Shown one piece after another: positions 4,420 through 47,309 of a stretch of DNA of 64,000 bases. Position numbers and translations under genes: made by a program. Below the pieces are notes generated by a model. That model did no database searches and was not told the origin of the DNA. It worked only from the letters and a program-made list of their open reading frames with translations. Each line of letters begins with the position of its first letter. Position 1 is the first letter of the stretch. Origin of the DNA: Blastocystis sp. Blastoise (Eukaryota > Sar > Bigyra > Opalinata > Blastocystidae); contig JBBPEB010000027.1 of NCBI GenBank assembly GCA_039096225.1, positions 621,501-685,500 on the forward strand, in the 5' to 3' direction.

Positions 4420-4651
4420 ATAAATATAAAGTGATGAACTATAATTTTTATTCCGTTTTTATTTTCTCTTCTAATTTCTTTTGTATGGGTTAAAACACTA
4501 GTTAGCTTTTATATATTTAAATTCTATATCTAGTTATATTACAAAATATTTTGTTTTGCTTTTCATTTTAATTATTTAACTTTAAAAAATAGATATATAA
4601 ACAGACAAAAAATTATATATAAATAATTTTCTTTTTAAAAAAGAAAAAGTT

Positions 4652-4723
4652 GGAGAAGAGGGGCATCGATCCCCTTACCTCTCGCATGCTAAGCGAGCGC
4701 TCTACCATCTGAGCTACATCCCC
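4652..4723 (-). tRNA. tRNA-Ala, anticodon AGC
   Basis: The minus strand folds as a 72-nt cloverleaf: acceptor GGGGATG, D arm GCTC...GAGC, anticodon stem CTCGC/GCGAG around TTAGCAT, and T arm AGGGG/CCCCT with loop ATCGATG. The acceptor pairs except for a T-T mismatch at position 6-67 and a G-T wobble. A T-run (Pol III terminator) follows immediately in the 3' flank. No intron is present and CCA is not encoded. Confidence 0.95.
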
Positions 4724-26803: not shown

Positions 26804-28617
26804 ATGTTTGCTACTCGTCTTGGTAAAGTTGCTACTATTGCTAGGTATGCTTCCTTTATGTTATTTTATTTAATTGAAATCATAGACCTGCCGCTGCTTT
26901 TGTTCGTAATATCGAAACCACTGGTGCCGCTCTTGGTATCAACAAGGCTCTCGGTATGAACTTTGGTAAGGTCCACAGAAATCTTAATTATGGTATGTAT
27001 TTATCAAATAATATGATTTTATTTTTTTTACTATTTTCAAATGATCATCAAAAATTATTGCCAAAACAATGAATGATTTATATTTTTATTTATATAGATG
27101 AAGTTCTTGAACACGAAGTCAAGAACAAGGAAGGTCAAATGACTGCTTTTGGTTGTTACACCGTTGATACTGGTGATTACACTGGTCGTTCTCCTCAAGA
27201 TAAATACTTCGTAAAACAAAAGCCCTCTGAAGATAATCTTTGGTGGAGTAAGATTCCTCCTAATAAGCCCGTTGATCCTAAGATCTTCGATGCTCTTTAT
27301 GAAGATGTCAAGACTTACATGAACGGAAAGGAAGTTTACGTCCTTGATGCTTATTGTGGTGCTTCTAAGACTACCTTCAAGAAGGTTCGTTTCATTACTG
27401 AATGGGCTTGGCAACATCACTTTGTCAAGAACATGTTCATTGTTCCTAAGACTGAAGAAGAAATTAAGAACTTCGTTCCTGATTTCACTGTCATTAACGC
27501 TTCTAAGGGTCTTGTCAACAAGAACTGGAAGGCTCAAGGTCTTAACTCTGAAGCTTTCGTTGGTTTCAATCTTGAACAAAAGGTTGCTATCATCATTGGT
27601 GCTTCCTATGGTGGTGAAATGAAGAAGGGTATCTTCTCTCTTATGAACTACTGGTTACCTCTTGAAGGTATTCTTTCTATGCATTGTTCTGCTAACCGTG
27701 GTCCTAAGGGTGATTCTGCTCTTTTCTTCGGTCTTTCTGGTACTGGTAAGACTACCCTTTCTGCTGATCCTAAGAGATTCTTATTAGGTGATGATGAACA
27801 TGGTTGGGATGATAACGGTATTTTCAATTATGAAGGTGGTTGTTATGCTAAGACCATCAATCTTTCTCAAAAGAACGAACCTGAAATTTATGGTGCTATT
27901 CGTAAGAACGCTCTTCTTGAAAACGTTTGGGTCAACCCTGATGGTACTGTAGATTTCTACAATAAGAGCAAGACTGAAAATGGACGTGTCTCTTATCCTC
28001 TTAATCACATCGCTAACCACGAACCTACTTCTTGTGCTGGTCATCCTAAGAATATCATCTTCTTAACTTGTGATGCTTATGGTGTTCTTCCTCCTGTATC
28101 TAAACTTTCTCCTGGTCAAGCTATGTATCATTATCTTTGTGGTTATACTGCTAAGGTTGCTGGTACTGAACGTGGTATTAAGGAACCTAAGGCTACCTTC
28201 TCTCCTTGTTTCGGTGGTGCTTTCTTACCCTTAAATCCTATTGTCTATGCTAAGCTTCTTGGTGAAAAGATGGAAAAGCACGGATCTCATGCTTTCTTAG
28301 TTAACACTGGTTGGACTGCTGGTGGTTATGGTGTTGGTCACAGAATGGATATTCCTGTTACTCGTAAGTGTATTGATGTTATTCTTGATGGTTCCATTAA
28401 CAACTGCAAATTTGTTCATGATGATTTATTCAACCTTGAAGTTCCTAGTAACATTCCTGGAATTGATTCTAATACTCTTATTCCTAAGAATGCTTGGAGT
28501 GATAAGGCTGCTTATGATGCTGCTGCTAAGGTTCTTGCTACCAAGTTCATTAAGAACTTCGAACAATACAAGGTTCCTAATCTTCCCGATTATTCCGTTT
28601 ATGGACCTAAACTTTAA
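26804..28617 (+). CDS. PCK1: ATP-dependent phosphoenolpyruvate carboxykinase
   Basis: Exons 26804-26844, 26886-26992 and 27098-28617 join in frame to 555 residues. PEPCK interconverts oxaloacetate plus ATP with PEP plus CO2. The ATP type is shown by the substrate motif [12 protein letters not shown], the P-loop [14 protein letters not shown], the metal-binding [13 protein letters not shown] and the C-terminal [12 protein letters not shown]. The first two exons encode about 48 residues rich in Arg and Ala ([20 protein letters not shown]...), resembling a mitochondrial presequence. ATP-PEPCKs are normally cytosolic or glycosomal, so this is notable. Third positions are strongly biased to T and C with AAG for Lys, unlike neighbouring genes, suggesting very high expression. 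Confidence 0.97.
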
Positions 28618-28874: not shown

Positions 28875-29788
28875 ATGTCTTCTCCTACAGTCTCTCCCAA
28901 ACCTCAATTGAAACGTATTTTAGATGAGGATGAATCTTCTAAGAAGAAGAAACAAGAAATAACGAAAAGATATCAAATCATTAAACGATTGTCAGAAGGA
29001 ACTTATGGTATGGTAGCAAAGGCATTAGATACAAATACAAATAACTTTGTAGCTTTAAAACAATTGAAGATGGAAAAAGAATCTCATGGTTTTCCAGTCA
29101 CTGCATTAAGAGAGATTAAAATATTACAAGGTCTTCAACATGAGAATGTAGTTCATCTTCAAGATACATTTAGCACACCCTCTAGTAATGATGATAAAAG
29201 TATACCTGACACTTATATGGTATTTGATTTTATATCTTTATGATTATTATAGTATTTGATTTTATATTTTTATATCTTTATGATTATTATGGTATTTAAT
29301 TTATATATTTTTTATTTTTATGATTATTATGGTATTTGATTTCATATTTCTATATATTTATGATTATTATGATATTTGATTTTATATCTTTATATATTTA
29401 TGATTCTAAATGAATATTCTATTGTTTTATAATATATATATATCAAAAGTATATTCTATATTTCTTTAATTCTTATTTTACGCTGATTACGATTTATTTT
29501 ATTTATTAAATAAAAAAATATCTTTTTCACTTGCTCAAAAGAAATATATATTTTTACAAGTATTAAAAGGCATGGCTTATTTGCATGAACATCATATTTT
29601 ACATAGAGATATTAAAGGTATATATATATTTATTATATTTTTATATTATTATATTTATTATATTTATTATATTATGATATTTATTATGTTTTATATTGTT
29701 ATATTGTTCATCTATATATAGCTAGTAATATATTAATTACGAAATCAGGAGAAATAAAAATAACTGATTTTGGTCTCTCCAGACCATT

Positions 29789-29837
<49 letters not shown>

Positions 29838-30056
29838 ACTTGTATTACTTTATTAATATTTGTTTTATTTTTTATATATTTTATATATATTTTGTATTTA
29901 GATTTATTTGCTATATATATATAATAGTATTCTATATAGTCAAAAACAGGTCCACATCTGTATACCCGTGATGTAATTACACGTAATTACAGGCCACTGG
30001 AATTATTCTTTAAAGAACAAATTTATAGTACTTCCGTCGACATGTGGAGTATGGGG

Positions 30057-30087
<31 letters not shown>

Positions 30088-31009
30088 AATCAATTTAAAT
30101 TCATTATTTAATAATTATATAAATATATAAAAATTATTTTTTGTTATTTATTTATGAAATATTGATATATATATATATATTATCATTTGATTTATTTATA
30201 CTTATTAGATTATTCTTTCTATACATATACATATATATATAATAGATGTTTATTTGGAGAGATTCTGCAGGGATCGGCCATGTTCCTAGGGAAGACAGAT
30301 CAGGAGGTAGTTACTAATATATACCAATTATGTGGCACAGATATCCATTTCTATTATATATATATATACTCTTTATTCTTATTTATATATATTCTCTACT
30401 TTTATATATATTGTACTAGTATTATCTACATACACTGTTTATTATTCATATTATATATACATTGGCTATCATAATTAAATAACTCTATTTTAAATATCTA
30501 TTCATATATATATATATATATTTCCATAATAAAATACTTCCAGAAAGTTCTATATTGAGTCAATTACCAGAGTATCGAATGTTTATTCCCAAAACTACAT
30601 ATATAAGGAAAATCAAAGAGAAATATCAACAGTATATATATATATATCTAAATAATTAAGAATTCTAAAATATATATATATCTAAATAATTAATAATTCT
30701 AATATATATATATATATATATATCTAAATAATTAAGAATTCTAAAATATATATATATTTAAAATTCTTTATGAACACATAGTTATGGATCTAATGCAGCA
30801 GATTTATTAGATAAATTATTAGCTCTTGATCCAAAACTTCGTATCAGTGCAAAAAGTGCTCTTGAACATCCATTCTTCTTCGATTCACCTAAACCAGAAC
30901 CTATCGATGTGTATATTATATTTAAATAACATTTATTTAAAAAAAATTATATTCATATATTCTAATTCTTCTATTCTTTAGAATCACACAGAAACTACCT
31001 GAAAGATAA
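28875..31009 (+). CDS. CDK9/BUR1-like cyclin-dependent kinase with two AT-AC introns
   Basis: The ATG at 28875 opens a basic N-terminus, then GEGTYG-like SEGTYGMVAKA and the cyclin-contact helix PVTALREIKIL (PITALRE in CDK9). Exon 1 ends VFDF at 29231 and exon 2 starts ADYDL at 29482, joined by an AT-AC intron. Further motifs are HRDIKASN, ITDFGLSRPF, VDMWSMGCLFGEIL and QLCGT. A second AT-AC intron (30341-30537) leads to VPESSILSQLPEYRMFIPK and the C-lobe end LLALDPKLRISAKSALEHPF. The stop is at 31007-31009. CDK9-type kinases phosphorylate RNA polymerase II and elongation factors. The APE region reads NYRPLEL instead of WYRPPEL, which is unusual. Closest group by motif is CDK9/BUR1; CDK12 cannot be excluded. 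Confidence 0.88.
29216..29415 (+). repeat. Five tandem copies of a ~40-bp unit spanning a 5' splice site
   Basis: The unit TATGGTATTTGATTTTATAT plus CTTTATGATTAT begins in the exon (the first copy contains the exon-intron border at 29231/29232). It recurs near 29250, 29290, 29330 and 29370 with small changes. Some later copies keep an ATATCTTT-like donor string. Confidence 0.85.
29232..29481 (+). other. Candidate U12-type AT-AC intron 1 of the CDK9-like gene
   Basis: The intron starts ATATCTTTA (U12 AT-AC consensus ATATCCTTT) and ends TTTTAC. A branch-site-like TTCTTTAAT (consensus TTCCTTAAY) lies at 29462-29470, 11 bases before the end. Removal joins VFDF to ADYDL in phase 0, matching CDK9 with no gap. 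No GT-AG pair gives an open frame here, because TAA sits just before the coding block with no AG between. Confidence 0.85.
29790..29834. repeat. (TA)n tract in a CDK9-like intron
   Basis: About 44 bases of TA directly after the exon end ending in RPF. Confidence 0.9.
30341..30537 (+). other. Candidate U12-type AT-AC intron 2 of the CDK9-like gene
   Basis: The intron starts ATATCCATTT and ends AAATAC. A branch-like TTCCATAAT lies at 30522-30530, 7 bases before the end. The exons join as CGT-V-PESS in phase 1, keeping the conserved QLCGT motif. A GT-AG reading with the nearby AG at 30543 gives stops. Confidence 0.8.
30630..30770. repeat. Three copies of a ~45-bp unit in a CDK9-like intron
   Basis: TATATCTAAATAATTAAGAA and its continuation TTCTAAAATATATA recur three times around 30640-30760. 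Confidence 0.8.
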
Positions 31010-46208: not shown

Positions 46209-47309
46209 TAATAATAATAATAATAATAATATACAAGCAATAAGTGGTTTTATGTGAGAGAGAGAACTTGAGAAGGAATCAATGCATATAGACATGTCAG
46301 ATAATACATTCTCTACCTATCCAAATCATATACATATATATTATTATAACAATAACATAATGAATAGTTATAGAATATATAACTATATATATACAGTAAC
46401 AGTAGCACTGAGTCCCCTTCCACTGCACGTGACTTTCAATGGATTGTAAACTACTACATCTTTCTTAATCTCTAAAATACTCTACAATATAATATAGCAT
46501 AGAAATATTCTCTCTCTAAATATATCAATATATATATATATATACTTTAGATATGTTTTCACTAAAGGTGAACATTGACTGAAGGAGACGTTGATGTGGC
46601 GGATTATTGATATTTTCAAGAGGAAACACAGGTTGTAAGTATCGTTCCTTTGTTGATATCTTCTTATCAGAGTATATTATTAAGAGACATTACGAAAATC
46701 ATTGATATGTAGAGAATATATATAATATATATAATATATATAAAAAATATTATACATATATATTAATACTATATATATAATCTATGAAAAGGATATAACA
46801 ATAAGTGAAGAAGGTTTAATGATGGTATTTAAACAAAGAGGTATATTACAACAATATTTTGGAACTGTAATTTTAATTTGTATTTCTATATAACCCACGA
46901 GATTCTCTTGAACATACATATATTGCATCCATTTTGGCTCCTCTAAAGAGACATATATAAATATATATGTTAGTTTATTTATTATATATATAATTATATA
47001 TAATTGAATACTTAGAATAGTTTTATTATTCAAATAACAAATTGGAAAAACAGAATCTTTTTGATATAAAGGTTTAGATTTTAACGCTCTATCTTTTAAA
47101 CAATCAGTTAAATTCAAACACACTTGAGCTTTTGGTAATTCATTTTTATTTTCTTCATTTATTACAGAATCATTTTTGCATTTGATTAAGACATACAATT
47201 TAAGTGATTCACCAGCTAATAAAAAGTGTCTGAATGTTGGTAAAGATTTATATGCGTCATCCATGTCAGGAATCCACACATCAAATAGTAATTGATCAAA
47301 TGTTGACAT
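45233..47309 (-). CDS. TRAPPC14/TRAPPC13-like beta-sandwich trafficking protein (tentative)
   Basis: Start ATG 47309 (MSTFDQLLFDVWIPDMDDAY). Then SLPTFRHFLLAGESLKLYVL with IKCKND, resembling the first Ig-like domain of TRAPPC14 (C7orf43/MAP11), and EPKWMQYMYVQENLVGYIEI. A candidate AT-AC intron (46796-46672) leads to SDKKISTKERYLQPVFPLEN, then KDVVVYNPLKVTCSGRGLSA. Later blocks are TIIPKSKMTIGPKEKLSYMV, ALVSIHIDIPEEIPMEKNVD and a last Ig-like strand set DYRLTLRILQKGKYEFPHFS, ending YCT at 45233. About nine introns, mostly (TA)n-rich. TRAPP accessory subunits act in Rab-GEF membrane traffic. The family call rests on motif memory only; function is inference. Confidence 0.5.
46672..46796 (-). 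other. Candidate U12-type AT-AC intron in the TRAPPC14-like gene
   Basis: On the sense strand the intron begins ATATCCTTTTC, an exact match to the U12 AT-AC donor consensus, and ends AATATAC. Branch-like TCTCTTAAT lies at 46687-46679, 7 bases before the end. Removal joins SLIV to SDKKIS in phase 0. A GT-AG reading one codon away (GTTATA...GATAAG) is also in frame but has a poor donor. Confidence 0.75.

Follow-up and report, generated by a model that had tools for sequence, protein, structure and literature searches.

The segment at positions 29232-29481 of a 64,000-nucleotide stretch of DNA from Blastocystis sp. Blastoise (referred to here as the window; positions given without a locus or contig are positions within it) is almost certainly a U12-type (minor) AT-AC spliceosomal intron of a CDK9-type kinase gene. 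The U12-type AT-AC identity had been put forward in the original prediction, and it is upheld by the sequence signals, the continuity of the encoded protein, the junction present in an NCBI protein, and the genes for minor snRNAs. From these sequence data, we infer that the segment is spliced and that its removal is carried out by the minor spliceosome.

The kinase gene and its AT-AC intron

The gene belongs to a stramenopile (Opalinata) with an AT-rich genome (33.3 Mb in 34 contigs, 24% G+C). Its layout, with the signals assigned to the intron, is as follows.

28875..29231, plus strand: CDK9-like kinase exon 1; its translation ends in TYMVFDF; Pfam Pkinase, 52 bits
29232..29481, plus strand: predicted U12-type AT-AC intron in phase 0 (250 nt); ranked first among 51 splice choices, junction in WA158_000294
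29232..29240, plus strand: predicted 5' splice site, ATATCTTTA
29228-29405, plus strand: tandem repeat, period 40, ~4.4 copies, beginning within the final bases of exon 1
29272..29280, plus strand: decoy copy of the 5' splice site; the 19-mer from 29272 is identical to the 19-mer at 29232
29462..29470, plus strand: branch-site motif, TTCTTTAAT, with the presumed branch A at 29469
29480..29481, plus strand: predicted 3' splice site, AC
29482..29617, plus strand: exon 2, beginning ADYDLFYLL; Pfam Pkinase, 38.3 bits
29618-29721, plus strand: ordinary GT-AG intron after exon 2
29722..29789, plus strand: exon 3; translation matches WA158_000294
29790-29939, plus strand: GT-AG intron after exon 3
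29940..30055, plus strand: exon 4; translation matches WA158_000294
30056-30245, plus strand: GT-AG intron after exon 4

An ATP-type phosphoenolpyruvate carboxykinase gene is located just 5' of the kinase (27073-28617, plus strand; Pfam PEPCK_ATP, E 1.3e-203), and a tRNA gene (4651-4723, minus strand) is the sole Rfam match in the window at gathering thresholds.

The best solved-structure matches of exon 1 were CDK9 chains (E 1.6e-18). The last letters of this exon are GTATTTGATTTT (in longer form, ATGGTATTTGATTTT), with 29231 as the final base, and exon 2 opens with GCTGATTACGATTTA from 29482. The intervening segment terminates in TTCTTTAATTCTTATTTTAC, its last letters being TTTTAC, and its excision yields TYMVFDF/ADYDLFYLL in phase 0. 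The coordinates first proposed for the intron proved exact, as did the claim of an in-frame TAA (29467-29469) with no AG between it and 29481. The 5' site ATATCTTTA is close to RTATCCTTT, from which it deviates at two positions, +6 (T for C) and +9, and the motif TTCTTTAAT, near the 3' end, is close to the consensus branch site TTCCTTAAC. This motif stops 11 bases before the end of the intron, in line with the distance originally reported, and its presumed branch A lies at a distance of 12 nt from the final intron base. Within the window, ATATC[CT]TT occurs at 22 of the 20,814 AT dinucleotides (both strands) and TT[CT][CT]TT[AG]A[CT] at a suitable distance before 17 of the 4,950 AC dinucleotides, giving a joint chance of ~4e-6 for the two motifs.

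Alternative splice choices were compared by listing all GT-AG, GC-AG, AT-AC, and AT-AG combinations in 29150-29600 that introduced no stop and kept the register of exon 2 (n = 51) and scoring them with a CDK9-like profile, for which 60 of 120 listed homologues were used and the kinase's own protein was excluded. The AT-AC pair 29232/29481 ranked first at 174.0 bits, followed by the AT-AC pair 29232/29490 at 161.4 bits, a lead of 12.6 bits, which agrees with the earlier statement that an AT-AC cut restores continuity in phase 0. The best GT-AG choice, 29220/29541, scored 127.4 bits, 46.6 bits below the first, with the loss of 24 residues, in keeping with the earlier assertion that GT-AG splicing does not restore the kinase stretch. 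The unspliced message up to the first stop scored 115.1 bits with the same profile. When the spliced translation was used as a 258-residue query, it matched the NCBI protein WA158_000294 with a reported identity of 100% over 100% of its length; read directly, the two sequences differ solely in the last residue of the query, which is beyond the last sure exon end. The depositors' protein therefore already has the VFDF/ADYDL junction.

The 40-bp repeat, on which the original prediction is silent, places further copies of the exon-intron boundary, 5' splice site included, inside the intron, raising the possibility that the decoy at 29272 is also used, such that the array renders a share of transcripts unproductive and acts as a natural brake on the kinase. 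Located 40 nt downstream, the decoy is identical to the 5' site over 19 nt, and splicing from it would retain 40 nt and reach a TGA at the fourth codon. We nevertheless regard its use as improbable, as the decoy is not preceded by the native exon bases, the three further repeat copies are degenerate, and tandem repeats in an AT-rich genome may be mere slippage. With one repeat unit, the intron would measure ~114 nt, inside the 99-148 nt range of the five other AT-AC introns described below, and the array (29228-29405) is better read as a slippage-type expansion than as a demonstrated switch.

Putative AT-AC introns elsewhere in the genome

Besides the kinase intron, two putative AT-AC introns backed by homology and three candidates were identified.

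L014 2198-2302, minus strand: putative AT-AC intron in a DHX36-like OB fold; homology, E 5.5e-21, gapless junction
L025 1456-1554: putative AT-AC intron in a TRIP12-like HECT domain; homology, E 2.8e-8, gapless junction
L012 1440-1560: candidate AT-AC intron; strict scan
L013 1412-1559: candidate AT-AC intron; strict scan
Window 46672-46796, minus strand: candidate AT-AC intron, ATATCCTTTT...TCTCTTAATAATATAC, phase 0; looser scan, open frames on both sides

The strict scan covered 326 kb (the window and the loci; 88 sequences after de-duplication) and combined the 5' motif [AG]TATC[CT]TT with the branch motif TT[CT][CT]TT[AG]A[CT], a branch A 8-14 nt from the final AC or AG, and open coding flanks. 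With thresholds that were fixed after the outcome of the looser scan had been seen, it returned five matches, the kinase intron included, while 60 controls with permuted 5' motifs returned 0 to 3 (mean 0.48), none of them reaching five. All five matches were AT-AC and phase 0, even though GT, AG, and all phases were permitted. The looser motif-plus-coding scan did not separate real sequence (28 matches) from its controls (7, 19, 23, 24, and 25), and a pattern for short AT-AC introns did not outnumber the same pattern reversed (39 versus 98 matches). Another locus from the looser scan (L081) was discarded because its frame is open unspliced.

All six introns are phase 0 with lengths of 99-250 nt, and the 5' sites of the five other than the kinase intron read ATATCCTTT in four cases and ATATCTTTT in one. 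Because the pattern that retrieved L012, L013, and L025 required a TTCCTTRAY-AC end, their density and branch sites are not independent evidence; their 5' sites differ from the ATATC of that fetching pattern. The pieces containing the introns in L012, L013, and 46672-46796 had no significant Pfam match, and the three remain candidates. In the case of 46672-46796, the branch site TCTCTTAAT was chosen by eye, and a protein search for the surrounding gene found nothing among 122 candidates, a result of little weight, since the gene model used as query was incomplete and its pieces had been joined by eye.

Components of the minor spliceosome

The original prediction held that this genome probably keeps a U12 spliceosome and named U11, U12, U4atac, U6atac, and 65K/RNPC3 as the components to look for. 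Genes for the four snRNAs, that for U4atac being a weak but corroborated assignment, and an RRM of the RBM41/65K type were found, in support of a retained U12 spliceosome. In an Rfam search of the whole genome, U11 (62.9 bits) and U6atac (63.8 bits) were matched over their full length above the gathering score, U12 was matched over its full length below it (46.8 bits, E 6.1e-7; gathering score 53), and U4atac had no match at E 0.001. The element CTTCTAATCAARATGT precedes the RNA start by 57-64 nt in U11, U12, and U6atac, and its exact matches genome-wide are these three only. There are four places with one mismatch, two of which lie 59 nt before U2 genes (142.5 bits each) and two of which (L042 and L044) are without an Rfam match. 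With up to two mismatches, the element occurs at 208 places in the genome versus 68 for the reversed pattern; two-mismatch places were listed in part, with 30 cut as loci and 20 of these 30 given to Rfam. Loci L001, L002, L003, L041, L043, and L098 together hold U11, U12, U6atac, the probable U4atac, whose element has two mismatches, and two U2 genes, whose elements have one each.

This element helped in the discovery of U4atac. A relaxed Rfam search gave one place, C8:151033-151167 on the minus strand, with 29.7 bits and E 0.045 (gathering score 53). The relaxed threshold also gave matches in 11 of 14 control genomes, and the Rfam match alone is therefore no proof of U4atac. The same place has a two-mismatch promoter element 60 nt upstream on the same strand, contains UCGUCCUUAUCG, the exact 12-nt complement of stem II of Blastoise U6atac, and contains AUGCUGAC, whose fit to stem I includes one G-U pair. 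A weak match corroborated by a promoter element at the right spacing and by the 12-nt complement suggests that this place is the U4atac gene, also below its gathering score. Two patterns based on exact pairing were also tried. GTCCTTN{20,50}ATGCTAAC gave one match that, judged by eye only, was not snRNA-like, and TCCTTN{33,63}TGCTAAC gave 36 matches, below the 56 obtained with the pattern reversed. Among the 30 of these 36 that were cut as loci, none had the promoter element at fewer than four mismatches, and the 13 given to Rfam produced no snRNA match. Such patterns were unable to detect U4atac because the gene that was found reads TGCTGAC. An Rfam screen at E 0.01, the cut-off in the available text of PMC10639083, would probably miss it as well.

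With respect to proteins, three zf-U11-48K fingers are present in the genome, and for two of them the fit to GTSF1 equals or exceeds that to 48K. A degenerate RRM pattern, based on a motif that we take to be characteristic of the 65K/RBM41 family, matched a single genomic place, at one mismatch, and its reversed form matched nowhere.

G000 C34:243026 (L101): exon encoding an RRM of the RBM41/65K type; pattern match and translation

The 53 residues of this single exon contain GKMKGQAF. Their best solved matches were 2cpx (E 9.4e-13), titled a hypothetical protein there and presumably RBM41, and 9xu3 (RNA-binding protein 41, E 5.1e-12), followed by RBM40/65K (E 2.2e-4). The domain is of the RBM41/65K type, is nearer to RBM41 than to the U11/U12 65K protein (RNPC3, RBM40), and may belong to either paralogue. 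RBM41 is described as a minor-spliceosome paralogue of 65K (excerpts of PMC11039992).

U6atac, the proposed splicing route, and known minor introns

In the U6atac gene, the box opposite the 5' splice site departs from the Rfam consensus, a change that the original prediction did not note.

L002 1501-1617 (G000 C21:544821-544937), minus strand: U6atac gene; Rfam RF00619, 63.8 bits

Blastoise U6atac resembles RF00619 in its full-length match, in its retained GAGAGAAGGUUAGCA, and in its complementarity to U4atac, and its promoter element is common to U11, U12, and U2. It is unlike RF00619 in that AGCCGA replaces AAAGGA, part of the AAGGAGAGA box, while the AT-AC introns retain TCYTT, the partner of the consensus box. 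In all six introns, under what we take to be the usual register of the box on the 5' splice site, AGCCGA forms regular pairs with +4 and +5, a wobble with +8, and mismatches with +6 and with +7; in five of them it also pairs with +9. In this fixed register, the box is a poor partner for the 5' splice site of every one of the six introns. The consensus box AAAGGA would pair at six positions in five introns (in one of them with a wobble) and at five positions, one a wobble, in the kinase intron. When U6atac and the 5' sites are folded together as free duplexes, the register shifts, and the Blastoise box equals the consensus box in energy in two of the six introns; the fixed-register count is preferred. 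The 5' end of U11 keeps AUAAAGG, with which the kinase site pairs best one base out of register.

Rfam finds a single copy of U6atac in the genome, and the core AGAAGGTTAGCA occurs three times, twice without flanks that appear U6atac-like by eye. AGCCGA may possibly be an assembly error, or a second U6atac copy may be unassembled. Our tentative proposal, to which we give somewhat less than even weight, is that U6atac of the Blastoise lineage lost a supposedly invariant 5'-site box while its introns kept the pairing sequence. The interaction of the AAGGAGAGA box is described as perfectly conserved (portions of PMC8283771), and the altered box is not mentioned in the available portions of the openly licensed PMC papers on Blastocystis that mention U6atac. 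If the proposal is true, the 5' site would depend chiefly on U11 and proteins, on a U6atac helix limited to 2-4 pairs, or on a shifted register at the neighbouring AGAGA. Were the change real and the RNA functional, it would call into question how far minor 5' site choice depends on the U6atac helix and would provide a natural test case.

For the kinase intron, the known pathway would have U11 recognise the 5' splice site and U12 the branch site, after which the 5' site would pass to U4atac/U6atac/U5, with U6atac presumably acting there despite its altered box. Cutting behind the terminal AC, 12 nt beyond the branch A, would join VFDF to ADYDL in phase 0. U2-type AT-AC introns occur in other organisms, and if the major (U2) spliceosome excised 29232-29481 as a rare intron of this kind, the poor U6atac pairing would cease to matter. 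However, ATATCTTTA and TTCTTTAAT at 12 nt are U12-type signals that co-occur in four other introns, and the minor snRNA genes are present, making the U2 route very unlikely. Less probable still is that the segment is retained or that the kinase gene is a pseudogene, as its unspliced frame, which stops four codons in (ISL and a stop), might suggest, given that the kinase is continuous after removal, the downstream exons are open and conserved, and WA158_000294 contains the junction.

Read as a U12-type intron, the segment is a new example of an intron type already published for Blastocystis, a precedent that the original prediction did not mention. In the parts available of PMC5608401, 346 U12-type introns in 319 genes are reported for Blastocystis ST1, together with the complete set of four minor snRNAs as well as seven specific proteins, and U12-type introns and components are identifiable in ST7 too. 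The accessible sections of PMC10639083 give 253 minor introns for ST1, of which 196 are AT-AC and 124 are phase 0, with a median length of 39 bp. For Blastocystis sp. Blastoise, our search of the openly licensed PMC literature found no paper. As far as these excerpts go, Blastoise is like ST1 and ST7 in genus, AT-AC termini, frequent phase 0, and minor snRNAs (PMC5608401, PMC10639083). It is unlike them in its 24% G+C genome and in the repeat array of the kinase intron, and its six observed introns of 99-250 nt contrast with the ST1 median (PMC10639083). AT-AC minor introns would thereby be extended to an AT-rich Blastocystis species.
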